A stretch of DNA of 37,063 nt from IMG/VR virus record IMGVR_UViG_3300023176_003816, positions 1 to 37,063 of that record. The stretch is one strand, 5' to 3'. The first letter of the stretch is position 1, and the number at the start of each line of letters is the position of its first letter. This document shows, piece after piece, positions 1,751 through 25,788 of this stretch. The DNA comes from a virus. The notes beneath the pieces were generated by a model. The model was not told where the DNA came from, did not search any database, and saw only the letters and a list, made by a program, of their open reading frames with translations. Both the position numbers and the translations under genes were made by a program.

Positions 1751-4700
1751 TTACTTGGCATTAGCAGTAGTAAACGGAGACTCTGCGAAGGCAGCGAATA
1801 TCATAGTATCTCCATTTTCATTCCATATACCAGTATTGTTTCTTACCTTAAATCCATTTGATAACATATCAATTTGGTATGTGCTATCTGCAACTCCACT
1901 ATTTTCTATTTCAGTTTGATTTGGTTTTAATTGTTTATTGCAGGGGTTTGATGATGCTCTACTACTATCTTGAATACCCCAATCTCTACCACCAGTATCA
2001 TCAGCATTCTTCACCATGACCCATGCCGGCTTAAATCCACAATATACAAAAGGACCATCAGCATCTCCATTTCCAACATAACTTCCAAACTTACTGAAAC
2101 CTTCTATTTCTGCCCAACAGTAAGCAATATAAGGGGCACCGGAGGCGTTTGTTGTGGCAGATGTACCGGTACTAAACACCGTTGATGTTGGCGTTACATT
2201 TTGCCAGACACTTGAGTCCGAACTATATGCATTTGATAGGTCCAAATAGGCATATCTATTTGGACCCTCAACCGCATGGTAAACAGGCCAATTTTCAGTT
2301 GCACCACTTCTACGCTTTGCAATAATCATTTTTGGTTCCTTTTCAAGTCCGTGACCGATCGTAGCATTAGATCCAGTTCCAGTATAAGAAACAATAGAGA
2401 ACCCAGCATCCTGATTGACACTCACCACAGAATTGATTGAACCATCTGTGTTTGCTGTTGTGGTGCCTGCTCCTGCTTGCCAACACCAGGCGACAAAATC
2501 AGTACTACTATTATTCCAATTTGAAGATAGACTAAACCCATCGGCATTAAAACTATATGGACCATTTATTGCTTCTACGTTAGTTAAATTAGCATATAAA
2601 GTGCGTCTTGACCCACGAACAGAATCAAATATTCCATGATTGTACGCCTGATTTCTTGCTTTAACCCAAACCAAGTCAGGAGTAAATCCAATACCAGTAA
2701 TATTTCTACCATCAGAGCCATCAGCCCTATAAAGCACCGTCTTAAAGTGCTCACCAGGATTCTTAATCGCAGGAGTTGGTAAGTTGTCCTCACATAATGC
2801 TAGGAAATCAGTTGGAGGTTCATACTTAAAGAGTCCTTTGCCGTTGCTGTCTGTGAAGGTTCCTGCTGTGATGTTTCCAGAGAATGTTGGGTTTTGACCG
2901 AAGTTTAAGGAATGTTCCTCTGATCTGTAAATATACATTACTGGCGACCAACTTTCAGTAACAACACCAACAGTTCTAATTGCAGTGTTTCCAGCAGCAA
3001 CTTGGGCTTTGGTTAAAGTCACAACACTAGAACCATTATATCCATACCACTGATCATTAATACCAAACCATAACTTTCCGTCAGTACCATCACTTGACCA
3101 AGCACATTGTATAATGTCTCCTCCAGTTAATGCAGTATCACTTACTTTTGCAATAACATCAGTTGTATCAAAAATCAAATATGGTCTCAAACTATCAGCA
3201 CCATATGGTCTTATTTGGGTTGTTCCATCAGTAAGATATGTACTACTAATTCTTTGACCATTCTTTAAAATTCCAATATTTGGCCATCCACCGGTGGATG
3301 ATGTAATTCTTGTTTCCCAATAGTATTCTCCAGTTGTTGGGAATCCAATGGTTGCTCTTCTTCCTGTTTGATTGTTATTACTAGCAAATGTTAAATTTCC
3401 ATTAGAAAGAGTTCCTTGACTATTAGTATCAACAAAATTCAAAGTCGCAAAGTTATTCGCAGTCGTATCGGGAACTGCTCTCCAAGTCGCAATACCTACT
3501 GGTGTATAAGGTCTCGGCACATCAAATCCACCTTTGTATTTTGCTACACCTTTGTATACTCGGAGGTCTTGTATGTAACCATTGTAAAAAGATGTTTCAC
3601 TTTGGTCCATACCAAATCTTGCTTCAGTGTTGGGTGATACAACATTAGCAGTAAAATTAGTGTTAATTCCCGTAGCAACACCATTGATATATCTTGTTAA
3701 AAGACTTCCATTTCTTTCTACTGCTATATGTGTAAATTGTCCTGTTGTAATTCCTGTAGCAGGTGCAATTTGTTGAGAACCACCCAGATAAATTTCTCCA
3801 TTTGCACCAACAAATAAATTATTTGTTGCAGATGCTGCTCCTCTTAATTCAAATAAAGGTCTTTGCTCGGGGACACCAGAATACCAACACTCTAAAGTAA
3901 AGTCACCTGTACCAAAAGTAAAATCAGTGAGATCTGTAGAGGTAGTGAGTTCAGTATCTGATCCATTAAACAGCATTGCACTACCATAATATGAAGAGGT
4001 TGTGCCAATACTCGCATTTGTTGTCATTGTTTTATTACTTCCACTACCTTTAATATCAGCAGAGTAATCGCCAAATCCACTTGAAGTTCCACCACTAATA
4101 CCAGGAACAGCAAGAACCAAATTAGCAGCATAAGGGTCTGTTCTTAACTGACTTACATAAGCATCAGTAGTCGTTGGAGCACCGTTGCGTGGTTGTGGTA
4201 GATCTTCACCTTTCAGAGTGATAATACTATTTGGTGTGGTATGGAAGTCAGCACCAAAGTTGGAACTATCATTCAGTGGTATGTAGACACCATTGACTCC
4301 AAAACCACCATTGCGTTCAATTTGTGCTTTGATGACTCTTGGTGTCTTTGGAACCCATTGTCCTGGTCTGAAATCAGTTGCTTGTGTAGAACCAGCAGAG
4401 ATGTAACCGTTTCCGTCCTTATAGAAACCAAACACATCTGGTGTGAGTGCTTGACCGTCTACTAAGTAGAGGTCCATCATCTGCCCGTGCCAGTTGCCAG
4501 TAAGAACACCAATTCTTTTTCCAATGTAGTGAGCAACTCTTTGATTTATCCAAGATTCATAATTTATTGAAATTGGATCTACAGCATTGCCAGAACCGGA
4601 TTGCAGGACACCATTAATATATTCAGCGGCTTTAACTTCTTGTTCTCCCTCCTGTGTGGTATCAACATAAGCCAAATAGTGTGTCCATCCAGAATAATCT

Positions 4701-4945
4701 TGGTATTTTGCTGGTGGAGTTTGATAATACCCATATGTACCACCAACTCTATTCCACATGTGTAAGTTATGACCGCTATTCAAATACCATGCAAACGCAT
4801 CATTAAAATCTTCTGTGGGTCCAGCATTGAACAAATGACCTCTATGAGAGGTCGCATCTGAATTTCTCTTTGCCCAAACAGAAATTGTAAACCTATAACT
4901 GTTACCAGTGCTTGTGGGCGTTCTCTTTAAGTATTCTTGTGCCAT
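1751..4945 (-). CDS. LamG/SPRY-like multidomain adhesin
   Basis: A 1064-aa, apparently secreted-type beta protein with several lectin-like modules. Residues 1-200 look like a concanavalin/LamG fold (YRFTISVWAKRNS, then DLYLVDGQALTPDVFG). Residues 275-475 hold a second LamG module (MLFNGSDTELTT, FTLECWYSG, FNGYIQDLRVYKGVAKY-like end). Residues 500-685 resemble a SPRY/B30.2 sandwich (YYWETRIT, NIGILKNG, WFGINDQWYG). The C-terminal 330 residues match the phage adhesin type with repeated F-PDLVWVK, FNADGFSL and VAWCW strings. The likely role is host-surface glycan binding by a distal fibre or other appendage. An AGGAG-type ribosome site precedes the ATG at 4945. Domain names are assigned by eye, without a profile search. 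Confidence 0.75.
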   Translation of the reverse strand: MAQEYLKRTPTSTGNSYRFTISVWAKRNSDATSHRGHLFNAGPTEDFNDAFAWYLNSGHNLHMWNRVGGTYGYYQTPPAKYQDYSGWTHYLAYVDTTQEGEQEVKAAEYINGVLQSGSGNAVDPISINYESWINQRVAHYIGKRIGVLTGNWHGQMMDLYLVDGQALTPDVFGFYKDGNGYISAGSTQATDFRPGQWVPKTPRVIKAQIERNGGFGVNGVYIPLNDSSNFGADFHTTPNSIITLKGEDLPQPRNGAPTTTDAYVSQLRTDPYAANLVLAVPGISGGTSSGFGDYSADIKGSGSNKTMTTNASIGTTSSYYGSAMLFNGSDTELTTSTDLTDFTFGTGDFTLECWYSGVPEQRPLFELRGAASATNNLFVGANGEIYLGGSQQIAPATGITTGQFTHIAVERNGSLLTRYINGVATGINTNFTANVVSPNTEARFGMDQSETSFYNGYIQDLRVYKGVAKYKGGFDVPRPYTPVGIATWRAVPDTTANNFATLNFVDTNSQGTLSNGNLTFASNNNQTGRRATIGFPTTGEYYWETRITSSTGGWPNIGILKNGQRISSTYLTDGTTQIRPYGADSLRPYLIFDTTDVIAKVSDTALTGGDIIQCAWSSDGTDGKLWFGINDQWYGYNGSSVVTLTKAQVAAGNTAIRTVGVVTESWSPVMYIYRSEEHSLNFGQNPTFSGNITAGTFTDSNGKGLFKYEPPTDFLALCEDNLPTPAIKNPGEHFKTVLYRADGSDGRNITGIGFTPDLVWVKARNQAYNHGIFDSVRGSRRTLYANLTNVEAINGPYSFNADGFSLSSNWNNSSTDFVAWCWQAGAGTTTANTDGSINSVVSVNQDAGFSIVSYTGTGSNATIGHGLEKEPKMIIAKRRSGATENWPVYHAVEGPNRYAYLDLSNAYSSDSSVWQNVTPTSTVFSTGTSATTNASGAPYIAYCWAEIEGFSKFGSYVGNGDADGPFVYCGFKPAWVMVKNADDTGGRDWGIQDSSRASSNPCNKQLKPNQTEIENSGVADSTYQIDMLSNGFKVRNNTGIWNENGDTMIFAAFAESPFTTANAK

Positions 4946-16326: not shown

Positions 16327-16989
16327 TCAAGCATCATACGGCCACTTGTCACCTTCGTCCATCTCAACAGGCAAAGGAACAACATCCTTTCTGGTGGCAT
16401 TGACAGTGTAATAGGCATTCACAGGTCCACCAGAAGCAGATTTCACAATGACCTGCTTACCCCAATTGATCTTTTCAACAAACAGATCTTGCCAACATCC
16501 CATTGGTGTCAGGTGAACAGTAATGGAATCAATATCAACCAGTCCATCCCAGTAGTCAGGCAAATTGATCACATTGCAGTCCTTCATAGTGCCACGGAAG
16601 TAGACACCATTCTCAGGTCCTTCCAGGCAAGCATGAACAAGCCTCTTACCTTCTTTAGTGGGGTGAGGAATGTTGAATGGTTTTACAGTAAAAGTTCCTG
16701 TGTTGGCAGTTACATTTCCACTGAGAGTGATAGAAGCACCAGTATAAACAGTAACTCCAGCTTGACCACAGGCAGGGATTGGTGTGATAGCAGTATTTAC
16801 TTGAAGAGTATTGATCTGTGCATTGCCATAATAGTATGGAGTGCAAGGTTCAAAACCACCAATGGGATCAGGATCTACATCATCATTTGTAGAGAACTTT
16901 TGAATAAAATCAAATCTTGTAGATGGTGTTCCAGTAACCACTGGATCTGTGCAATTTTGTGTTCCTAATGTTTGTGGTACAAATGTCAT
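16327..16989 (-). CDS. Virion structural protein with IPHP-type C-terminal domain
   Basis: A 220-aa protein. From about residue 100 it carries FNIPHPTKEGKRLVHACLEG, VYFRG, NLPDYWDGLV, SITVHLTPMG and NAYYTVNATRKD. This is the conserved domain found in cyanophage structural proteins and related to sequences near phage fibre C-termini. The N-terminal 100 residues are Pro/Thr-rich and contain several Cys. The next gene downstream has the same domain and order, so the two are paralogues. It overlaps that neighbour's stop-start context (ATGA) and lies in the hub-to-fibre part of the cassette. A tail-tip or fibre-base role is inferred. Confidence 0.7.
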   Translation of the reverse strand: MTFVPQTLGTQNCTDPVVTGTPSTRFDFIQKFSTNDDVDPDPIGGFEPCTPYYYGNAQINTLQVNTAITPIPACGQAGVTVYTGASITLSGNVTANTGTFTVKPFNIPHPTKEGKRLVHACLEGPENGVYFRGTMKDCNVINLPDYWDGLVDIDSITVHLTPMGCWQDLFVEKINWGKQVIVKSASGGPVNAYYTVNATRKDVVPLPVEMDEGDKWPYDA

Positions 16990-17777
16990 TTCTGGTTCTC
17001 CTTAACATCATAGTGGTATCCTGAGATAGAATACTCTTCATTATTACCTGGATAATCTCCTGGTGTCTTTCCTTCATACTCTGGAATCAGTTTCTCACCA
17101 TCTTTCCTTTCGGCATAGATGTGATAGAAGCAATTGATGGGAATGCCACTCTTAGATTGAAGATAGATCTTCTCAGCATCAATTCTCTTCACAATAATAT
17201 CCTGATGAGCACCAATTGGAGTCAGATTTACTGTGATAGAATCCTGATACACAAAATCCTTCCAATATTCTGGAAGATTGATTTCAGTTTTGTTCTTTAC
17301 CTTACCTCTGATGTATACATCATTAGTTGGTGCTTCTGGACAGGTGTGTCTCAATCTCCATCCTTTCTTTGATGGGTGTGGGATATCAAAGTTCTTCTTT
17401 GCAGAAAGAATATGAAGACCACATCTGGATGCCACTTCTCCTTGAGCAATAAGATTGGTTCCTACATTGATTCCTAAGTTAGTATCAATCTGACCAAGAA
17501 ATGCGGAAGATCCTTGAACAGCAAGAGAATATGGATTATTGATACCAGTGCAAAGTGCTCCTGGAATCAAAGGTGGTCCCAAGAGATCTGGATTGGTAAC
17601 AGGACCAATCATTGTAGTTGCCCAAACATTTGGAAAAACATTTGGGTTGCCCATGATAACTGGACCTTCCATATAGGCAGATCCACGAATCTCAAGAGGA
17701 CCTCTACCCAAACATTCAGGATTGCCTTGTCCTACAAATAATCTTTTACCAATATAGGCATCAGGTAACTTAGCCAT
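16986..17777 (-). CDS. Paralogous virion structural protein, 263 aa
   Basis: A 263-aa paralogue of the adjacent 220-aa protein. The shared C-terminal domain has FDIPHPSKKGWRLRHTCPEA, VYIRG, NLPEYWKDFV, SITVNLTPIG and CFYHIYAERKD. The N-terminal half differs: it is Gly/Pro/Asn-rich with short beta segments (YIGKRLFVGQG, PLEIRGSAYMEGPVIMG). It lies directly downstream of the spike-like 193-aa gene, its ATG overlapping that gene's TAA (TAATG), and overlaps the 220-aa gene by ATGA. The position after gp5 and the spike-like protein suggests a tail-tip component, not proven. Confidence 0.7.
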   Translation of the reverse strand: MAKLPDAYIGKRLFVGQGNPECLGRGPLEIRGSAYMEGPVIMGNPNVFPNVWATTMIGPVTNPDLLGPPLIPGALCTGINNPYSLAVQGSSAFLGQIDTNLGINVGTNLIAQGEVASRCGLHILSAKKNFDIPHPSKKGWRLRHTCPEAPTNDVYIRGKVKNKTEINLPEYWKDFVYQDSITVNLTPIGAHQDIIVKRIDAEKIYLQSKSGIPINCFYHIYAERKDGEKLIPEYEGKTPGDYPGNNEEYSISGYHYDVKENQK

Positions 17778-18358
17778 TATAAAATACTCCTATTTTTATC
17801 TTCATTAGCAGATCCTCCTTTAGATCCTTTTATTTCAGTGAATCCATCAGCAATATCCACCAATCCTCCATAAATGTCACAAATGGTTTTTCCAATTACA
17901 TTTACAGTTCCATCAGAAAAGATCTTGGCAGATACTGATGCATTGGCATCAAATATTTTTGTCTTTATTAGAACTTTCTCATTAGATTCTAACCTAATAA
18001 CTCCATTCTTTCCATTTGGTCCAGATGCAATTAGATCAATGTTTATCCCCTCAATTCTAACACGTCCATTGGGAGCACGCAATACTAAGTCACCACTAAC
18101 AGCATCAATATAAACACCTGGTTTACCTTTCCCTACACGATCTCCTGCTTTGACCTGAAATGAACCTAAAGATCTACAAATTGTACCATCTTTGCGATGG
18201 TCTTCTCCAGTAGAATCTAATGTGATGTAGTGTAGTTCTTCCTGACCACTTCTTAGCATCACTGCAGACAAATTGTTGTCTTCATGAATGTGACCAAAAG
18301 ATATGTCACCATCAGCATTACCATATCTAAGAGTATGGTAGTTCTTTCTTTCTGCCAT
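17777..18358 (-). CDS. Spike-like beta-rich baseplate protein, 193 aa
   Basis: A 193-aa protein following the gp5-type gene with a TAATG overlap. Residues 75-170 consist of short alternating strands and turns (GVYIDAVSGDLVLRAPNGRV, NVIGKTICDIYGG) resembling the C-terminal beta-helix needle of T4 gp5 and VgrG. No lysozyme or OB-fold motif is present. Because the adjacent 801-aa protein has the gp5 OB-fold but no obvious needle, this gene may supply the detached spike. That is an inference from repeat texture and gene order; it could instead be an unrelated beta protein. Confidence 0.6.
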   Translation of the reverse strand: MAERKNYHTLRYGNADGDISFGHIHEDNNLSAVMLRSGQEELHYITLDSTGEDHRKDGTICRSLGSFQVKAGDRVGKGKPGVYIDAVSGDLVLRAPNGRVRIEGINIDLIASGPNGKNGVIRLESNEKVLIKTKIFDANASVSAKIFSDGTVNVIGKTICDIYGGLVDIADGFTEIKGSKGGSANEDKNRSIL

Positions 18359-20763
18359 TAAAGTTTACCTACACAGTCAATTACTGTTATCAGATCACCA
18401 GTTACTGGTTTATCTACATCTTCACCAATTCTATCTATGCACAATTGTGGCAAGAGAATTGCATTATATCCAGTGGCACTCTCTATGGTCACAGTTGGAA
18501 GTTCAGTAAATCCTTCACCACCCTTTGTTACCTTGATACTTTCAACTCTACCAAATCTATTGAAGGTAGCAACTGCTTCTGCACCATTGCTTGGTTCAAT
18601 CACTACTCTATCATTAGCACTATAGTTTACACCAGCATTTTCAATAATGATGTCACAAAGATAAAGAACAGCAGGATATGCTCCAGTGCTTAATGTTGGT
18701 GCAAGACCACGCAATGATCCATAATTAACTTCTGGAGTTGTAATACATCCATCTCTCTTCATGATGTGTGGAACTCCTCCAAGAATTTCTTCCCCACCAC
18801 CAGAATCACTATTGGGTTCTGTAACAACTCTTGCACCAGCAGGAATTGTCACTGAGTCCCCTGCCACAACACAAACTCTATTGCCTGGTGGGATGGGGAT
18901 CTCATAATCACCATTCTCATGTTGAATAATGGTCTCATTATTCTCTGCCCAAGTTCTACCACTACCACCCAAACTACCATCAGGTGAAGGCAGATAACCT
19001 GTTCCACCATCAATAATTTCAATTCCAATGATACCTGTTGTCTCTGTACCATCTGGAAGAGTTCCTGTTGGATCTGTTGTAGTTTCTCCAACAATAACTG
19101 TACCAATAATAGGTCTAATTACAGCTCCATCACCTTTTCCACACTGATCATACACCTTACCAAAGGTATCACCAACCAAATAATTGATACCCGCATTGAC
19201 AACCTCTGCGCCAATGACTGATCCCTGACCACTTACAACAAGATTGACAGCAGCTCCTGTTCCACCACCAAAGAATTGTGCAAGTGGTGGTCCACATGCT
19301 ACTGGTCCAGTGAAACATCCACTTAAATCAAACATTGAATTGATATCGAGATTGAAGTTGAAGTTATCTCCATTCAAAGTGTCTGAAACTTCTCCTGGAT
19401 AAGATGTGACTTTGTTTATCAATCCTTGAATATTTCCTGCAACTGAGTTACCTGCACCTAACCACATGCTCCATTCATCCACAGTTGTACACTCTGGATC
19501 ATCATCACAACTCAGGAATGAAAGAACATCTTTGATCAGATCAAGAGCATCACCAACAATAGAAACTGCTCCACCAACAATAGAATTGAATGCACCAAAC
19601 ACTTGACCAATGACGCTATTGATCAATGATGCAATCTGACTCAGGATACTTCCTAAGAAATTATCAACTAAGCATTGTGCAGTATTGACAACCTTGAGAG
19701 CAGCACCTCTGATAAAATCAGCAATAACACTGATCAAACTTGCAATTATTTTTCTAAACAAGCAACTAAAGGCATCATTAGCAGATCTTCTTGCCTTATC
19801 AAGGGCTGGTTGTTCATTTGGAAACACTAAGTTGTAAAGTTTTTTGGCAACACTATCAATCTTTTTATTAATTTGTTTCTCTACATCATTCAAAACTGAT
19901 TTGATTGCTTCCATTATCTTTGCAGTTTTCTTTGCAATCCACTCATCAATGTCTTTTTGTATATCAGCAGTTTTCTTGGCAACATCAAACTGAAACTTGT
20001 AAACTGACTTCTTTATCTTCTCTATCTCATTGAGAGTATTTTGAAGTTCTTTGCTAATTTGTCCTAATTTGGATTTGCAATCAGTAGATGTTGCTAAGGT
20101 CGCTTCTATCTTTCCATCAGCCCTTTTACCTGCGCCATCAAGGTCCTTTATCTGACCACCAGTAGGGCTCTGTATAGTTACACTTGCAATACTATATGTT
20201 GAAGCACTTGGTGAAAATAAAGTGTCAGATTGAGAGATTGCTGCTGCAGTAGTAATGCCAGTCAGTGGAGCAACAACACCTTGATTTGGATTTAGTTTTT
20301 GTGCATAGACAGGAACTTTTGCCTCATCAAATCCATTGAAAGGTCTAAATCCACTGGCAGGTAATCCCTTTAGAATCTGATTGTAATTATTGTGTCCAAT
20401 AGCACCCATGATGATGGGATTCTGTGCATCCTCACCATCCAAAAAGAATCCAAAGACAAAAGTACCTTGAGTCAGGTTAGCAGATTGCCATGATGCTCCA
20501 CCACCACCTCCTGCAGTGGTTGGATACATGACATGTGCCCAAGGAAGATCCTTATCTGGCAATTCTTTTAGGTTATCTGTGTGATAACCCATAATGCGAA
20601 CCTTATATCTCTCACTAAAACCTGGAGTTTGGTTTGTAGAGGTGACAGTTCTTCCAGTCAGATTACCTTTCCATTCTTTTTCTGGAGCAATCTGACCTAT
20701 CCACCAGATGAAACCATCTCTACCTACAAAATGCTTTTTGAATAAACCTTGCTGTTCTATCAT
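18358..20763 (-). CDS. gp5: Baseplate hub protein, gp5 OB-fold type, no lysozyme
   Basis: The 801-aa protein has the gp5/VgrG OB-fold signature in residues 15-123: YKVRIMGYHT, LPWAHVMYPT, a Gly-rich loop, GTFVFGFFLDGEDAQNPIIMGAIG. T4 gp5 is 575 aa and carries a lysozyme domain after this. Here residues about 205-330 are a Lys/Glu-rich coiled coil, 330-420 are hydrophobic helices with Cys, and the C-terminal 380 are beta-rich and Gly-rich; no lysozyme motif is seen. It acts at the tail tip under the gp27-type hub. Candidate peptidoglycan hydrolases are instead in the two tape-measure-like genes upstream. No strong ribosome site precedes the ATG at 20763. Confidence 0.85.
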   Translation of the reverse strand: MIEQQGLFKKHFVGRDGFIWWIGQIAPEKEWKGNLTGRTVTSTNQTPGFSERYKVRIMGYHTDNLKELPDKDLPWAHVMYPTTAGGGGGASWQSANLTQGTFVFGFFLDGEDAQNPIIMGAIGHNNYNQILKGLPASGFRPFNGFDEAKVPVYAQKLNPNQGVVAPLTGITTAAAISQSDTLFSPSASTYSIASVTIQSPTGGQIKDLDGAGKRADGKIEATLATSTDCKSKLGQISKELQNTLNEIEKIKKSVYKFQFDVAKKTADIQKDIDEWIAKKTAKIMEAIKSVLNDVEKQINKKIDSVAKKLYNLVFPNEQPALDKARRSANDAFSCLFRKIIASLISVIADFIRGAALKVVNTAQCLVDNFLGSILSQIASLINSVIGQVFGAFNSIVGGAVSIVGDALDLIKDVLSFLSCDDDPECTTVDEWSMWLGAGNSVAGNIQGLINKVTSYPGEVSDTLNGDNFNFNLDINSMFDLSGCFTGPVACGPPLAQFFGGGTGAAVNLVVSGQGSVIGAEVVNAGINYLVGDTFGKVYDQCGKGDGAVIRPIIGTVIVGETTTDPTGTLPDGTETTGIIGIEIIDGGTGYLPSPDGSLGGSGRTWAENNETIIQHENGDYEIPIPPGNRVCVVAGDSVTIPAGARVVTEPNSDSGGGEEILGGVPHIMKRDGCITTPEVNYGSLRGLAPTLSTGAYPAVLYLCDIIIENAGVNYSANDRVVIEPSNGAEAVATFNRFGRVESIKVTKGGEGFTELPTVTIESATGYNAILLPQLCIDRIGEDVDKPVTGDLITVIDCVGKL

Positions 20764-20767
20764 TGTT

Positions 20768-22300
20768 TTATACTAATCTTGCTACTGGTACTAAATCCAT
20801 GGATGTATATGTTTCTGTTGGTGTAACTCTATGACAGACATTTGCTATCATATAATTTCCTGTTAAATTTTTATCTTCTTCTGGTTCATTACCCACAGAT
20901 GATCCTCCACCACCAACTGCTTCAAATATACAATGGATGATATTTCCAGCAACCATACTAAAATCACCAGATATAACAATATTTAACTTCTCTCTGAATA
21001 GATTATTATATTGCATGATAGACTGGACCATGTTCTTAGGTGCATCATTGGTGGGATTTAAAGGATCATTTCTCCAACTTTCCAACTCAGCTTCTGAAGT
21101 AACTCCAGATGGTAAAGTGCCAATGTCAAGAATATGGCTCATTAGTCTGGATGGAGAATATGTAAGTGTTCTATCTGGCAATGCTCTGAGTTGAGGAATT
21201 GTTTTACCCTCAAGCACTGCAGCAGTAAAAGTTTCCTTATACACTTCATTTCTATCTAAAATATCTGCAATAATATCAAAGTCTCTGACTTTATAATCCA
21301 TAGAATAAAAGTCAAAAAATATTGTTCTATTATTGTAGGATCCAAGAGCTAAATCTTTTTGAGTATCAAGAGAAGTATCTACAGTGTATGTTAAAATCAA
21401 ATTATCCCCTTGGTTCAGATCTATAGATTTTGCAGAAGTACTCACAAAGTTCTTGACCCTAAAGGTATATTTTCTACCCTCAGATGTGTTTACCACATTT
21501 ACTTTCCTCTTGGATCTGCTTTTTTTATCCTCTTCGCCAAAAAATCTATTAGCCAAGGAGACAAAATGCATACCCAACCTTGTCTGGAAAAATACAAATC
21601 CAGCCCTTCTATTAATTGTTGGAATGTTTGATACTGGAAGTGGAACTCCTTTACTTGCTAACTTTGTACAGACACCAAAAGGTTTACTATCATTTCCTAT
21701 AAAATTATAAGTCAATGCAGTTTCTTCAACTTCTATGAGACTTTCTTCTACTCTTAGAACATCTTTGACTATTTTTTTGACACTATCGCTAATTTTTCCA
21801 TCATATCTTTTTGATACTCTAACCAATTCATTAGTAAATGCTTCTCTTGAAACTAAATCTATGGCATAATAATTTTTCAAAGAACTTGTACTGACATCTC
21901 TTATTCTTGAGACATACATTCCATTATACATTTTTAAATTATTGAGAGATTTTCCTCTCCCATCTATATCAACTCTGTTATTATAATTATTATCCTCAAT
22001 ATCAAAATCAACTCTATTACCACCACCTATACCAGGATATAAATTGCCCTGAGAATTCCCCAAAATTCCACCAGGAGATGCTTTTAACTTGCCATTTGTA
22101 TAGATGTATCCACTATCAACAATTTCAACAGTTGCTGAAACATAATTAGATAAAACACTCTCATAAAAATAGAATTGAGTCAAAGATCCAGTGAGATCCA
22201 CTGCATTGCCTTCTCTGTCAGAAATGACAAATTTCTTTATATTTACTGGAGCAATTGCTGCATTGGTATTAAGGGGAACCTTTTCTTGAAAATTACTCAT
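20768..22300 (-). CDS. Baseplate hub protein, gp27-like candidate
   Basis: A 510-aa protein placed immediately upstream of gp5. Its architecture fits gp27/gp44-type hub proteins: N-terminal tube-like beta domain (VKKFVISD-type start, TQFYFYESVLSNYVSATVEIVD), a middle helical part (SDSVKKIVKDVLRVEESLIEVE) and the GFVFFQTRLGMHFVSLANRF string, which resembles the conserved phrase of hub domains that read out tail-tip position. The C-terminus (NLTGNYMIANVCHRVTPTETYTSMDLV) resembles their closing strand. T4 gp27 is 391 aa. Sequence similarity is weak, so this rests on gene order plus pattern. AGGT lies 5 nt before the ATG at 22300. Confidence 0.6.
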   Translation of the reverse strand: MSNFQEKVPLNTNAAIAPVNIKKFVISDREGNAVDLTGSLTQFYFYESVLSNYVSATVEIVDSGYIYTNGKLKASPGGILGNSQGNLYPGIGGGNRVDFDIEDNNYNNRVDIDGRGKSLNNLKMYNGMYVSRIRDVSTSSLKNYYAIDLVSREAFTNELVRVSKRYDGKISDSVKKIVKDVLRVEESLIEVEETALTYNFIGNDSKPFGVCTKLASKGVPLPVSNIPTINRRAGFVFFQTRLGMHFVSLANRFFGEEDKKSRSKRKVNVVNTSEGRKYTFRVKNFVSTSAKSIDLNQGDNLILTYTVDTSLDTQKDLALGSYNNRTIFFDFYSMDYKVRDFDIIADILDRNEVYKETFTAAVLEGKTIPQLRALPDRTLTYSPSRLMSHILDIGTLPSGVTSEAELESWRNDPLNPTNDAPKNMVQSIMQYNNLFREKLNIVISGDFSMVAGNIIHCIFEAVGGGGSSVGNEPEEDKNLTGNYMIANVCHRVTPTETYTSMDLVPVARLV

Positions 22301-22305
22301 TATAC

Positions 22306-23982
22306 CTATGCGTTATAAAGGGTGCTTTGAATAGTGTGGTCATAATATCTATTTAACGCTCCAGTGTCAGGTATCATAGCAAACTTTGTTCCACCTCCAC
22401 CAGACACTTGTTGTCCCCCTCCAGATGCAACAGGAACTATCAAAGTCTGTGCTACTTGTTCTTCATATGAAGCCTTTTTACTTACAGCAGTTGCTTGATC
22501 AAGTGCATCAGGTCCTGCTGGTTGAGCAGGTTTTACTTGTGCTGGCATTCTGTAATACTTTCCTTCTCCACCATATTCAGCAGCATATGCTGCAGGAGAT
22601 GCTTCCCAACTAAACGCTGCTTTACTACTGGAGTTTGATATGATGTTTCCATTATCTAAAACAATACCAACATGTTTTTGTCCAGGAGCAATATACAAAT
22701 CTCCAGGTTGCTGATTGCCAGGTTCAATGTATTGATATCCATCCTTTATCATAGCATTCTCTGCATCTGGAACCCAGTTAGAACTACCCCATGGTGTTTT
22801 CAATCCTGCTTTTGCAAATACTTTATTGACTGCCCATACACAACCATTTCTTCCACCATCAGGAGCTGCTGCACTACTGAATCCTTTCATAGATTGTGCT
22901 GCAGCTGCTAATGTTTTAGATGCTTGTCCAGGTATTGCAGGTGTTTGAGGATTAAAGAATCCATCTTTTATTTGCTGCTCTATTATTGCTCGTGATCTTG
23001 CTCGTTGGGGCTCCAATGCTGCTATGGACTTATCAAAATCAAGTTTGAGTTCTTGAAGAGTTTGCTTATACATCTTAAGTGCTTCTGGGTCCCATTTGTC
23101 TGGAGTAAGATGACCAAAAGTGCCTTCTATTATTGCCTTTCTCTGGGCAGGTTTTAGTCCTGGTTGTTTCCAAACTGCATTTGGTCCTGTTATTTCATCA
23201 TATTTTGCAGTTGGAGCTGCAAATACTGCAATCAAACCCAAAGCAGCCAGAGCAACCAATCCAGGTGGAGACAACAATATACTGGCAAGCAATCCAGCAA
23301 GTTTGAAGAATAATGGCAAACCAATGGTTAGTAATCCACCCAAACTCAAGAGAGATGATGCTGCAATTGTCCCCACAATTGCCATTGTTCCTATAAACAT
23401 GGCAACAAAGTTGTCTTCTAAGAATTTGAAGATTTGTGCTGTCTTCTTTGGATCACTAAACCAATTTAACAACTGCATGATGGCAGTTGAGAAAACAAAT
23501 CCCTTTAAGAAATTCAAAGCACCATCAAAAATAGATGACTTAGGACCTGCAATCTTTGCTGAATTTTTTACTACATCTTTCTGTTCCTTTATCTCTGACT
23601 GCTCTTCCTTGCTCTTCTTCTGAGCATCCTGTAAAGATTTTGCTTGAGCAACAGACTTTCTCTTCTCATTTGCCAATTCATTTTGCTTAATTTGAGTCAG
23701 AGTGTTAACATTCTGAGTTACAGAATCCAAAGTCTTTACCAATGCGCCATAAGATCCTTCTTCACCACCTTGTTTTGGAACAATACTGGCATTGATGGAT
23801 CTATAGTATGAGGTTTTTATAGTTGGAACTATTGCTGCCCTGGGTTTGACCACTATAGAGTTTGGTTTAGAAGTTTTAGTTTCTTCTGTTCCACCTCTTT
23901 TGGCTAGAGCACCTTTTTTATCTTTCTTGTCTTTCTTTTTAGATGCTATATTTTTTAGAGCACCTGTAAGTAACATCATCAT
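22306..23982 (-). CDS. Tape-measure-like protein with NlpC/P60- or CHAP-type domain
   Basis: A 558-aa protein. Residues 1-145 are basic and helical, with a coiled coil around 85-140. Residues 155-178 (FLKGFVFSTAIMQLLNWFSD) match the paralogue encoded just upstream. Residues 192-257 are strongly hydrophobic, as in tape-measure proteins. Residues 375-465 form a cysteine peptidase-type domain, with C381 in GRNGCVWAVNKV and H437 in KHVGIVLDNG, the order of NlpC/P60 and CHAP enzymes. It probably runs through the tail tube and cleaves peptidoglycan during DNA entry. Three ATGs in a row make the exact start uncertain. The hydrolase family needs a profile search to fix. Confidence 0.7.
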   Translation of the reverse strand: MMMLLTGALKNIASKKKDKKDKKGALAKRGGTEETKTSKPNSIVVKPRAAIVPTIKTSYYRSINASIVPKQGGEEGSYGALVKTLDSVTQNVNTLTQIKQNELANEKRKSVAQAKSLQDAQKKSKEEQSEIKEQKDVVKNSAKIAGPKSSIFDGALNFLKGFVFSTAIMQLLNWFSDPKKTAQIFKFLEDNFVAMFIGTMAIVGTIAASSLLSLGGLLTIGLPLFFKLAGLLASILLSPPGLVALAALGLIAVFAAPTAKYDEITGPNAVWKQPGLKPAQRKAIIEGTFGHLTPDKWDPEALKMYKQTLQELKLDFDKSIAALEPQRARSRAIIEQQIKDGFFNPQTPAIPGQASKTLAAAAQSMKGFSSAAAPDGGRNGCVWAVNKVFAKAGLKTPWGSSNWVPDAENAMIKDGYQYIEPGNQQPGDLYIAPGQKHVGIVLDNGNIISNSSSKAAFSWEASPAAYAAEYGGEGKYYRMPAQVKPAQPAGPDALDQATAVSKKASYEEQVAQTLIVPVASGGGQQVSGGGGTKFAMIPDTGALNRYYDHTIQSTLYNA

Positions 23983-23988
23983 TTCTTA

Positions 23989-25788
23989 CTATGCCCCCAC
24001 AATATTGTATTGACCTTTGATTGCATACAAATATGGATTTGTTGGGTCAAAAGCACTGAAGTTTGCTACCTTCTTTTGGTTTGGAGTTGCTGTAGAAACA
24101 TTTGTCCCATTAGTATTACCTCCCATAGGAAGTGCAGCAATACTTGGAGCAGGTGCAGCAGGTTTTGGTGGAGGTGGTGCAGAAGCTACAGTCTTTGTGG
24201 GGGAAACACTTGCTGGAGTTATTGAAGATGTAAATTGAGGTTTTGTTCCTTTCAAAGAGTTGATAGCATCCAATGCTTTTTGGTCAAATTGCAGTTTATT
24301 TCTTGGATCAGCAAGCCATGGTTGAGCACCTCTTTCGCTTGCCAACTGGACTGCCAATCTGTCTTGATTAGCTGCACTGAATTTATCAGTCATCTTCAGA
24401 CCAGCTCTTTGTGCTAATCCTGGTAAAGTATCTCCAGTGAACTGATATGCTCCTGCAGCATGAATAAATCCTTCAGCATTTGTGAGATTCTTATCCTGTC
24501 TCCTTATGACTTCGCCAAGAGTCATGTCAGTAATTCTTTGACCAAGAATGGTTTTTGAGTCACCACTCTTTGGAGCAGCACCAGTTCTGTCTGCAACAGT
24601 TCCTTGATTCATAGCATCATATCCACCAGAACCTGCAGATTCATACTTCTTAATGTACCCCAAAGCAGTTGCTTGCATTGAAGTGAGCCCCACTGTTGGA
24701 GTTGCAGTTACTTTAGTAGGACCAGTCTCTGATAAAATAGACGGTTCTGATTTTGGTTCAGGATATTTAATTAAAGGTATCTGCATTTTATCTGTGATTG
24801 ACTGTGTAGGAATCACAGGTACTTTAGGAATAGTCAGTGGACTACTACCCATCTTTTTAAGTAATGGATTTATAGCATTTTCAAGATTGACCAACTGAGC
24901 ATTGGCACCTTCAATTACCTTATTGATTGGATCAAATATTCCCTTCAAAACACTTGCTATTCCAGCATTGACTTTCTCAATGACACCATTAACCCAATTG
25001 ATCAGAGGTCTAAAGTATTCAATAGGATCCTCAAGGAATCTCAACAACTCCATTATGAGTGTAGAGAACAGGAACTTCTTCAAGAATCCACCAACAGTAT
25101 CAAAGATATTTGTTATAGGTTTCATGGCACTCTTCAAAGCACCTGGAACACCTGTCATTATTTTCTTTCTTTCTTTAGCAATCTCCTTTTCTTTCTGCTC
25201 TGCCCTTTGAGCAGCAACTCTTTCCTTTCTACTTTGCTTCTCCTCCTCTTTATCTTGTCTGATAGAAGTTTGTAAAAGTTTTCTTATTGCATTGTCAAGA
25301 TCAGATACCTTCTCAGCAACTTCAACATTAACAGGTGCTTCTGCTTCTTTTAAATCTTCCTGTGGTTTTGTAATTGCCCTTGGTGCTGCCTTTACAATAG
25401 CAGATGTTTTTGTTTTCTTTTTTCCAACAAAAGATTCTTTCTTTATCTTCTGCCCCTTGACCTTAAATCTACCAGTCTTACCTTTGACTCTCTTAAATTC
25501 ATCAGTCAGTAATTGAACTTCTTCTGTAGGAATCTTACTATCTGGCATTCTACCAGCAGCCATTCTCTCCCTCAGAAGAGTTTTGTATGTATCATAGTCA
25601 ATATCAAATACATCTTCCAGACCCAACAATCTAAGAATCTCTGGATCAATATCCTCATTCTCTACGCTATCACTTTCTTTCTTTTCTGCCTTTGGGACAA
25701 CAACAATCGCAGAGGATTTCTGAGACTTACCTTCGCCTCTAATGGAATTCAGTAAATCGTCCAAACCCTCTGGAATGTTATCCGCCAT
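23989..25788 (-). CDS. Tape-measure-like protein with lysozyme/transglycosylase-type domain
   Basis: A 599-aa protein, near T4 gp29 (590 aa) in length. Residues 1-215 are charged, with a Lys/Glu-rich coiled coil at about 160-210. Residues 234-253 (GFLKKFLFSTLIMELLRFLE) match the downstream paralogue. Residues 370-490 look like a lysozyme-fold domain: E383 in IKKYESAGSGGYDAMNQG is the likely catalytic acid, followed by MTLGEVIRRQ and IHAAGAYQFTGDTL. A Pro/Ala-rich linker (residues 510-570) precedes the C-terminus. The gene follows gp26 and its second-frame ORF, exactly where a tape-measure gene is expected, and overlaps the latter by 11 nt. Function is inferred from position and motifs. Confidence 0.7.
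   Translation of the reverse strand: MADNIPEGLDDLLNSIRGEGKSQKSSAIVVVPKAEKKESDSVENEDIDPEILRLLGLEDVFDIDYDTYKTLLRERMAAGRMPDSKIPTEEVQLLTDEFKRVKGKTGRFKVKGQKIKKESFVGKKKTKTSAIVKAAPRAITKPQEDLKEAEAPVNVEVAEKVSDLDNAIRKLLQTSIRQDKEEEKQSRKERVAAQRAEQKEKEIAKERKKIMTGVPGALKSAMKPITNIFDTVGGFLKKFLFSTLIMELLRFLEDPIEYFRPLINWVNGVIEKVNAGIASVLKGIFDPINKVIEGANAQLVNLENAINPLLKKMGSSPLTIPKVPVIPTQSITDKMQIPLIKYPEPKSEPSILSETGPTKVTATPTVGLTSMQATALGYIKKYESAGSGGYDAMNQGTVADRTGAAPKSGDSKTILGQRITDMTLGEVIRRQDKNLTNAEGFIHAAGAYQFTGDTLPGLAQRAGLKMTDKFSAANQDRLAVQLASERGAQPWLADPRNKLQFDQKALDAINSLKGTKPQFTSSITPASVSPTKTVASAPPPPKPAAPAPSIAALPMGGNTNGTNVSTATPNQKKVANFSAFDPTNPYLYAIKGQYNIVGA

Follow-up and report, generated by a model that had tools for sequence, protein, structure and literature searches.

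Genomic context of the hub and the 193-aa protein

The window analyzed here is the whole 37,063-base stretch of an IMG/VR virus record, a fragment of a genome. Pfam and PHROG matches identified a set of T4-like tail genes within it (tail tube, a gp26-type hub protein, gp5, a tail protein and a small protein), together with two proteins resembling cell wall enzymes and with wedge and fiber-like genes. The best matches among named phages for its gp5-type hub protein and for the 193-aa protein encoded next to it (hereafter the spike, for reasons given below) were to Synechococcus and Prochlorococcus phages. An initial annotation had placed the 193-aa ORF directly after gp5; its coordinates proved right, the ORF lying on the minus strand as the next gene after the 801-aa hub (Table 1), and the plus strand at 17777-18358 is interrupted by stop codons throughout. 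By position only, the 510-aa tail protein upstream of the hub is a candidate gp27-like component. Elsewhere in the window, a 1064-aa virion protein (1751-4945, minus strand) carries DUF7483 and a lectin-like Laminin_G_3 domain.

Table 1. Coordinates of the hub, the putative spike, their parts and the adjoining genes
Feature	Position	Strand	Basis
Putative stand-alone central spike (needle) protein, 193 aa	17777..18358	-	PHROG 26118 (function unknown); fold, kinship, gene order
Spike residues 10-62, short strands	18173..18331	-	AlphaFold monomer; comparison: T4 gp5 needle, opening with four strands
Spike residues 91-160, confident but strandless	17879..18088	-	pLDDT 81-91 as 10-residue averages; no intrachain strand
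TAATG, hub stop overlapping spike start	18356..18360	-	zero offset likewise in 36/64 loci
gp5-type hub protein, 801 aa, needle not found within	18358..20763	-	Pfam, PHROG, predicted model, profile comparison
Hub residues 16-132, OB fold	20368..20718	-	VIA-align to 1k28_A; Pfam Gp5_OB
Hub residues 232-416, long helices	19516..20070	-	predicted model
Hub residues 480-680, intrachain beta domains	18724..19326	-	predicted model
C-terminal beta domain of hub (residues 695-778), putative adaptor for spike docking	18430..18681	-	predicted model, VIA-align
510-aa tail protein upstream of hub	20768..22300	-	PHROG 350 tail protein, E 3.2e-71
263-aa protein, first of related pair	16986..17777	-	start codon overlaps spike stop codon
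220-aa protein, second of related pair	16327..16989	-	ORF, PHROG, profile comparison

Base 18358 is common to the hub stop codon TAA (as its last base) and the spike start codon ATG, and the gene after the spike likewise starts on the spike's own stop codon. As the hub and spike frames share TAATG, their co-translation is probable; taken alone, the junction is weak evidence for coupling, because the window shows no enrichment of TAATGGC (6 occurrences versus 3.6 expected).

Relatives of the 193-aa protein were found at 31 IMG/VR loci and in 18 phage records (some of them GenBank/RefSeq pairs), and an alignment of the window protein with 25 of the 31 loci (A1, 26 rows; L001, L004, L014, L016, L020 and L031 were omitted as near-copies or an incomplete copy) contained 22 invariant columns; given these relatives and this conservation, the ORF is, on sequence grounds, a real gene. 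Its sole PHROG match at E ≤ 0.1 was to PHROG 26118, and the window protein had no Pfam and no NCBIfam match. Among the 18 phage records, 13 relatives are annotated as hypothetical, two as tube protein, and three carry no annotation. The GenBank name of S-SCSM1 gp154 (L034:8962-9546), contractile injection system tube protein, is probably a misannotation.

Domain composition of the 801-aa hub

Assignment of the 801-aa protein as a gp5-type hub follows from its Gp5_OB domain (Pfam E 3.3e-6, above the cutoff), which VIA-align superposed on T4 gp5 (1k28_A; Z 9.4, rmsd 3.4, 93 aligned residues, 27% identity). The predicted hub model has confident intrachain strands in its C-terminal half (481-680, 701-780), and pLDDT is below 50 in 250 of the 801 residues, the last 21 included. 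No needle family was found in the hub by Pfam at E ≤ 1, and the hub profile gave no match when compared with eight T4-type needles (0.2%). The initial annotation had seen no evident needle in the gp5-type protein and had taken a needle in its C-terminal part as grounds for abandoning a detached spike; none emerged there from Pfam, from the profile comparison or from the predicted C-terminal half. Nor did Pfam detect a lysozyme family in the hub at E ≤ 1; hub residues 7-611 match PHROG 1922, whose name is hub subunit and tail lysozyme. Two proteins upstream of the hub (22306-25788, minus strand) both have endolysin-family PHROG matches, one with additional CHAP/NlpC-P60 similarity below the cutoff, and these proteins may account for wall degradation, an activity not detected in the hub. 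In VIA-align, residues 703-775 of the hub superposed on a domain of the T4 tail sheath protein gp18 (Z 7.9, rmsd 2.5, 73 aligned residues; VIA-align Z values below 8 can mean only a shared arrangement), and the C-terminal stretch at 18430-18681 also matches wedge and virion protein PHROGs.

Predicted fold of the spike

The best AlphaFold monomer of the 193-aa protein had a mean pLDDT of 71.8 and a pTM of 0.52 (mean pLDDT of the other four models, 56.7-63.6), with five strands at residues 10-14, 17-24, 30-37, 44-48 and 59-62. The T4 gp5 needle (389-575) is described as four antiparallel strands (389-427) followed by a corkscrew (428-575) (PMC4576200). The outline of the spike model agrees with this layout, but it has five strands against four, and its corkscrew is read from the strandless stretch, such that residues 91-160 would form one chain of an intertwined triple β-helix trimer. 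A non-helical fold had been named beforehand as an outcome that would argue against a spike; the predicted monomer instead resembles the spike layout. The initial annotation had also pointed to short alternating β units: the stretches it quoted are present and short strands are predicted, but the repeat analysis it proposed gave no statistically clear signal (autocorrelation at 7-8 residues, z of ∼1.8 for hydrophobicity and ∼2.3 for G/N/D, unremarkable among 30 lags).

In VIA-align searches with the spike model, rows 1 to 10 consisted entirely of chains from VgrG, eCIS spikes or T4 gp5 (Z 4.3-6.2, in the range that can reflect shared arrangement only, with rmsd near 9 in several alignments). 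They included 8gra_G (Z 6.2, rmsd 9.0, 151 aligned residues), 7b5h_AJ (Z 5.8, rmsd 3.1, 122 aligned), 9gtr_q (Z 5.7, rmsd 3.9, 162 aligned, covering model residues 1-184), T4 gp5 (residues 386-571 on model residues 4-193, thus spanning the whole needle domain; Z 4.9, rmsd 8.9) and Francisella VgrG 6u9e_B (Z 4.6, rmsd 5.5, 76 aligned); the tenth row was 7aef_q (Z 4.3), and the next a dystrophin-complex chain (Z 4.2). As the Z values are middling, they were weighed by their mutual agreement and not singly, and absence from VIA-align lists was not used as evidence. The top Foldseek row in the PDB was an eCIS spike (E 0.08, probability 1.00), followed by a dystrophin-complex chain (0.31) and T4 gp5 (0.52), and the BFVD matches at E ≤ 0.001 comprised three rows, of which two were cyanophage proteins with names and the third was unnamed.

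It could be argued that the real needle is an unrecognized part of the 801-aa hub, with the small protein serving as an extension, collar or tip; the many hub residues of low pLDDT and the monomeric state of the hub model leave room for this. We regard it as very improbable, since the C-terminal half of the hub has confident intrachain strands and a conserved C-terminal domain, the hub has no profile match to needles, and the small protein covers the whole needle domain by itself.

Probable sequence kinship of the spike to VgrG

Searches of PDB sequences with the single 193-aa protein returned nothing significant, as did those with the A1 profile (γ-sarcoglycan, 0.44; transposase, 0.65; VgrG, 2.5 and 4.1). 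Iterating an HMM over the 2,740 ORFs of the loci (duplicates included) yielded 101 matches, and 17 divergent members hand-chosen from these and their kin formed a sister profile (A4), which aligned to A1 in hhalign with 97.9% and E 4.9e-13 over 73 columns (spike residues 64-142). The sister profile retrieved 14 PDB sequences at E ≤ 10, led by VgrG 8gra (1.3e-4) and followed by VgrG 6sjl (0.0053), the tail-tip protein gp86 (0.006), VgrG 9jg8 (0.0071), eCIS All3320 (0.015) and Francisella VgrG (0.023); the weaker rows were eCIS and VgrG chains and phiKZ164 (0.35), with four unrelated rows interspersed from 0.27 on. DUF2345, which we take to be the VgrG β-helix family, was matched at E ≤ 0.05 by 16/17 sister members, 3/26 members of A1 and 0/6 of a neighboring family (displayed scores below the Pfam cutoff), and other β families were matched less strongly by the sister group. 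One sister member also matched the NCBIfam TssI/VgrG model of Francisella (3.5e-5, below the cutoff).

Other Pfam matches of A1 members were to Sarcoglycan_1 (3/26, best 1.4e-6) and AcetylCoA_hyd_C (4/26), and sarcoglycan was matched by 5/17 sister members as well. As sarcoglycan chains also form a triple β-helix, these matches, which were set aside, may reflect the fold. Comparison of A1 with the eight T4-type needles failed (2.4%, E 0.019, with the unrelated neighboring family A5 reaching E 0.039), and so did that of the sister profile (3.2%). Because both profiles fail against T4-type needles, kinship is claimed to VgrG and not to T4 gp5: judged by profile comparison through the sister group, the spike looks VgrG-like (DUF2345). 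The earlier suggestion of a gp5 needle encoded by its own gene is thus supported as to the detached spike, but the protein resembles VgrG and not T4 gp5 in sequence.

Gene order across related loci

With the window hub as the query, 80 gp5 loci were retrieved, of which 15 had fewer than 300 nt beyond the last hub-profile ORF and were set aside. A spike-profile ORF (142-278 aa, the shortest being cut by contig ends) lay directly downstream of the hub in 64 of the 65 usable loci; the exception, L102, had 308 nt remaining. In all 64, the ORF preceding the spike carried the C-terminal hub region, and this holds for the split hubs of L064 and L113 too. Over both query sets, the spike directly followed the OB-bearing ORF in 81/89 cases, the eight exceptions being the split hubs of L029, L064 and L113, then L103, L104, L105 and L109 (four of the 15 loci set aside above; no spike is seen because a second long hub-like ORF after the OB ORF reaches the end of the locus), and L102. 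Splitting of the hub over two ORFs was observed in L064, L113, L029 and L033 (S-SM2), and its C-terminal part stays beside the spike. No single ORF among the loci examined matched both the hub and spike profiles, in a sample biased by the use of the window hub as the query and therefore unlikely to bring fused forms to the surface.

Needles fused to gp5 do appear to occur in the cyanophages Syn9 and S-SM1, whose gp5 proteins (gp20, 835 aa, and gp5, 850 aa, respectively) have needle-like ends with weak Gp5_trimer_C matches below the cutoff. A 64- or 65-aa ORF follows gp5 in these phages instead of the spike gene, which seems to be absent, and a search of both genomes with the sister profile gave no match. 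The fused form is likewise our reading for HTVC008M and BUCT-ZZ01. Gene "5_2" of avDM6, considered as a split gene, was rejected, as it is a fused 611-aa gp5.

These comparisons bear on whether the 193-aa protein might instead be a small trimeric fiber or baseplate protein with a β-helical stem, the central spike lying elsewhere or being absent. Triple β-helices are common in phage fibers, and in RN05-S the two genes that follow the spike are annotated as collagen-like, with tail-fiber genes further on. Such a role is nonetheless improbable: the structural and sister-profile matches are mainly central spikes, the gene directly follows the hub in all but one of the usable loci, and the needle appears to be hub-fused in Syn9 and S-SM1, precisely where the small gene is missing.

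The initial annotation had held that separate hub and spike genes would differ from T4. They probably do so here, but the arrangement is not unique to the window. P-HM1 and P-HM2, S-CREM2 and Melnitz likewise encode an OB hub and a needle on separate neighboring genes; unlike that of the window, their needles look T4 gp5-type (on weak or partial matches), they fall elsewhere on the OB tree, and three of them (P-HM2, S-CREM2 and Melnitz) yielded PAAR candidates. The label gp5 is borne by two genes in P-HM1 and by two in P-HM2, the second being needle-like (in P-HM1 one gene separates the two); both P-HM2 genes are already gp5 in GenBank, and the P-HM2 needle, missed by the spike HMM, is assigned from position, Gp5_trimer_C (0.002, below the cutoff) and tblastn. 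In Melnitz, the OB gene is followed by a needle gene that retains a weak OB-like stretch, and S-CREM2 ORF212 matched the T4-type needles in hhalign with 95.9%, but the alignment spanned only 55 columns, all in the N-terminal part of those needles. A tree of 21 hand-picked OB rows separates the seven rows with a VgrG-type spike from the rest by a single branch (support 93/90, present in 95% of bootstrap trees), and the gp5-type splits need three changes on it. Hub and spike may therefore have been separated more than once; repeated detachment is likely from this tree, though not forced by its well-supported branches. Among the titles and abstract openings of the open-access literature in the matches listed, none described a detached spike in T4-like cyanophages.

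Virion evidence and proposed role of the spike

The S-SCSM1 record carries the note "(virion protein)" on hub gp155 and four other proteins and not on the spike relative gp154, which slightly reduces confidence in a central-spike role; tail protein gp157 is likewise without the note. The S-SCSM1 paper reports 45 virion proteins, 13 of them of unknown function (PMC9602691). Virions of S-CREM2 contained ORF212, a counterpart of another needle type and not of this spike type, at 29.2% coverage from 14 unique peptides (PMC10665884, Table 3); that paper names it inner wedge protein. A virion proteome is also reported for S-SM1 (Sullivan 2010; PMC3037559). The missing note on the S-SCSM1 relative would suit a protein that helps the hub to assemble, as a chaperone or scaffold, and stays outside the virion, and fiber chaperones may be encoded just 3′ of the fiber gene (PMC4576200). 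Against such a role, which we consider extremely improbable, stand the predicted fold, which is that of a spike, and the reported presence of the S-CREM2 counterpart in virions.

Fold, gene order and the sequence kinship of the sister group all point the same way, and we interpret the 193-aa protein as the central spike of a contractile tail, encoded by its own gene and detached from the hub (probability of roughly 0.85). The basis of this interpretation is gene order, conservation, the predicted monomer fold, VgrG kinship via the sister group, and a hub in which no needle was detected. In the mechanism we infer, which comprises coupled translation, trimer formation, docking and piercing, hub and spike would probably be co-translated via TAATG. 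Three 193-aa chains would intertwine into a needle, with short antiparallel strands on top and then a corkscrew, and the needle would sit below the trimeric OB fold of the 801-aa hub. The likely socket for docking of the spike is the conserved C-terminal domain of the hub, whose coding region adjoins the spike gene in all loci counted. On sheath contraction, the spike would lead the tube across the outer membrane, after which enzyme domains of neighboring proteins would open the wall.

T4 gp5 resembles the predicted arrangement in its OB fold, in a short-strand start followed by a corkscrew, and in a similar needle length. In T4, hub, lysozyme and needle are encoded by one gene, whose product is matured by cleavage, whereas in the window the needle would have its own. 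The window hub also differs in having long helices and no lysozyme family that was found, and the spike in having no clear VxGxxxxx octad repeat and no PAAR (gp5.4) partner that was found. Canonical VgrG/eCIS spikes (All3320, 9gtr) gave the best structural rows and most of the top sister-profile matches, and in these spikes the needle shares one polypeptide with gp27-like and OB domains. The spike of the window has neither a gp27-like nor an OB domain, and its hub is on a separate gene. Fusion of the needle to gp27-like and OB domains is described for VgrG in PMC5924787, in which the Francisella T6SS VgrG is a 164-aa stand-alone spike thought to be without the gp27-like head and OB fold, the hub is a separate protein (PdpA), and IglG is the proposed PAAR-like tip. 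As far as that account goes, Francisella VgrG/PdpA is the nearest described case, with a short spike and the hub on another gene as in the window. Unlike that secretion system, the window belongs to a phage, the OB fold stays in the gp5-type hub, and a PAAR tip was not found. The comparison indicates that phages, like Francisella, can encode on separate genes the hub and spike that T4 has fused, and offers a likely function for PHROG 26118 and its sister groups, which are mostly annotated as hypothetical. T4-like cyanophages are abundant in the sea.

The tip of the spike and the adjoining protein pair

The tip was surveyed in 16 hand-picked records, seven with a VgrG-type spike (the window, RN05-S, S-SM2, S-SCSM1, P-SSM2, S-CAM9 and ACG-2014f) and nine others. 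At E ≤ 0.01, PAAR (PF05488) was detected in 0/7 of the former (the window fragment and six whole genome records; a divergent tip could escape such a search) and in 8/9 of the latter (5 above the cutoff; S-SM1 without; one of the two P-HM2 matches crosses a stop). Gp5_trimer_C at E ≤ 0.1 was found in 0/7 versus 7/9. The 263-aa and 220-aa proteins after the spike (16327-17777, minus strand) have a conserved C-terminal domain in common and overlapping start and stop codons; their family lies beside the spike in 5/7 records with a VgrG-type spike (three of which, the window, S-SM2 and S-SCSM1, supplied the profile rows) and in 0/9 others, with one weak match elsewhere in P-SSM2 and none in ACG-2014f. 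Of 49 loci, 36 have the family no more than 1.5 kb past the spike (21 of them twice) and 13 lack it. Fisher values (PAAR: 0.0014, or 0.034 counting only matches above the cutoff; Gp5_trimer_C: 0.0032; pair: 0.0048) overstate these differences because relatives are treated as independent and the seven records are one clade; all three differences may be one correlated change.

The apparent absence of PAAR makes the identity of the needle point directly testable, and the 263/220-aa pair is a possible replacement tip or fiber. Rather tentatively, one T4-like cyanophage clade may have a VgrG-type stand-alone spike where others have a T4-type needle, and no PAAR tip. The spike would be held by a dedicated C-terminal adaptor domain of the hub, encoded beside it even when the hub gene is broken in two, and would in many of these phages be finished by the translationally linked pair rather than by a PAAR cone; we hold this combination to be doubtful, and the part that has the pair as tip is weakened because 13 of the 49 loci have no pair and three of the five matching records match by construction. 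A scan of the window ORFs with a PAAR motif gave one match, which was irrelevant. In S-CREM2, gp215 (L121:10281-10625) has a Pfam PAAR match above the cutoff and is labeled central spike, and in P-HM2 the protein labeled PAAR (PHM2_082, L131:1932-2267) is encoded two genes before gp25.
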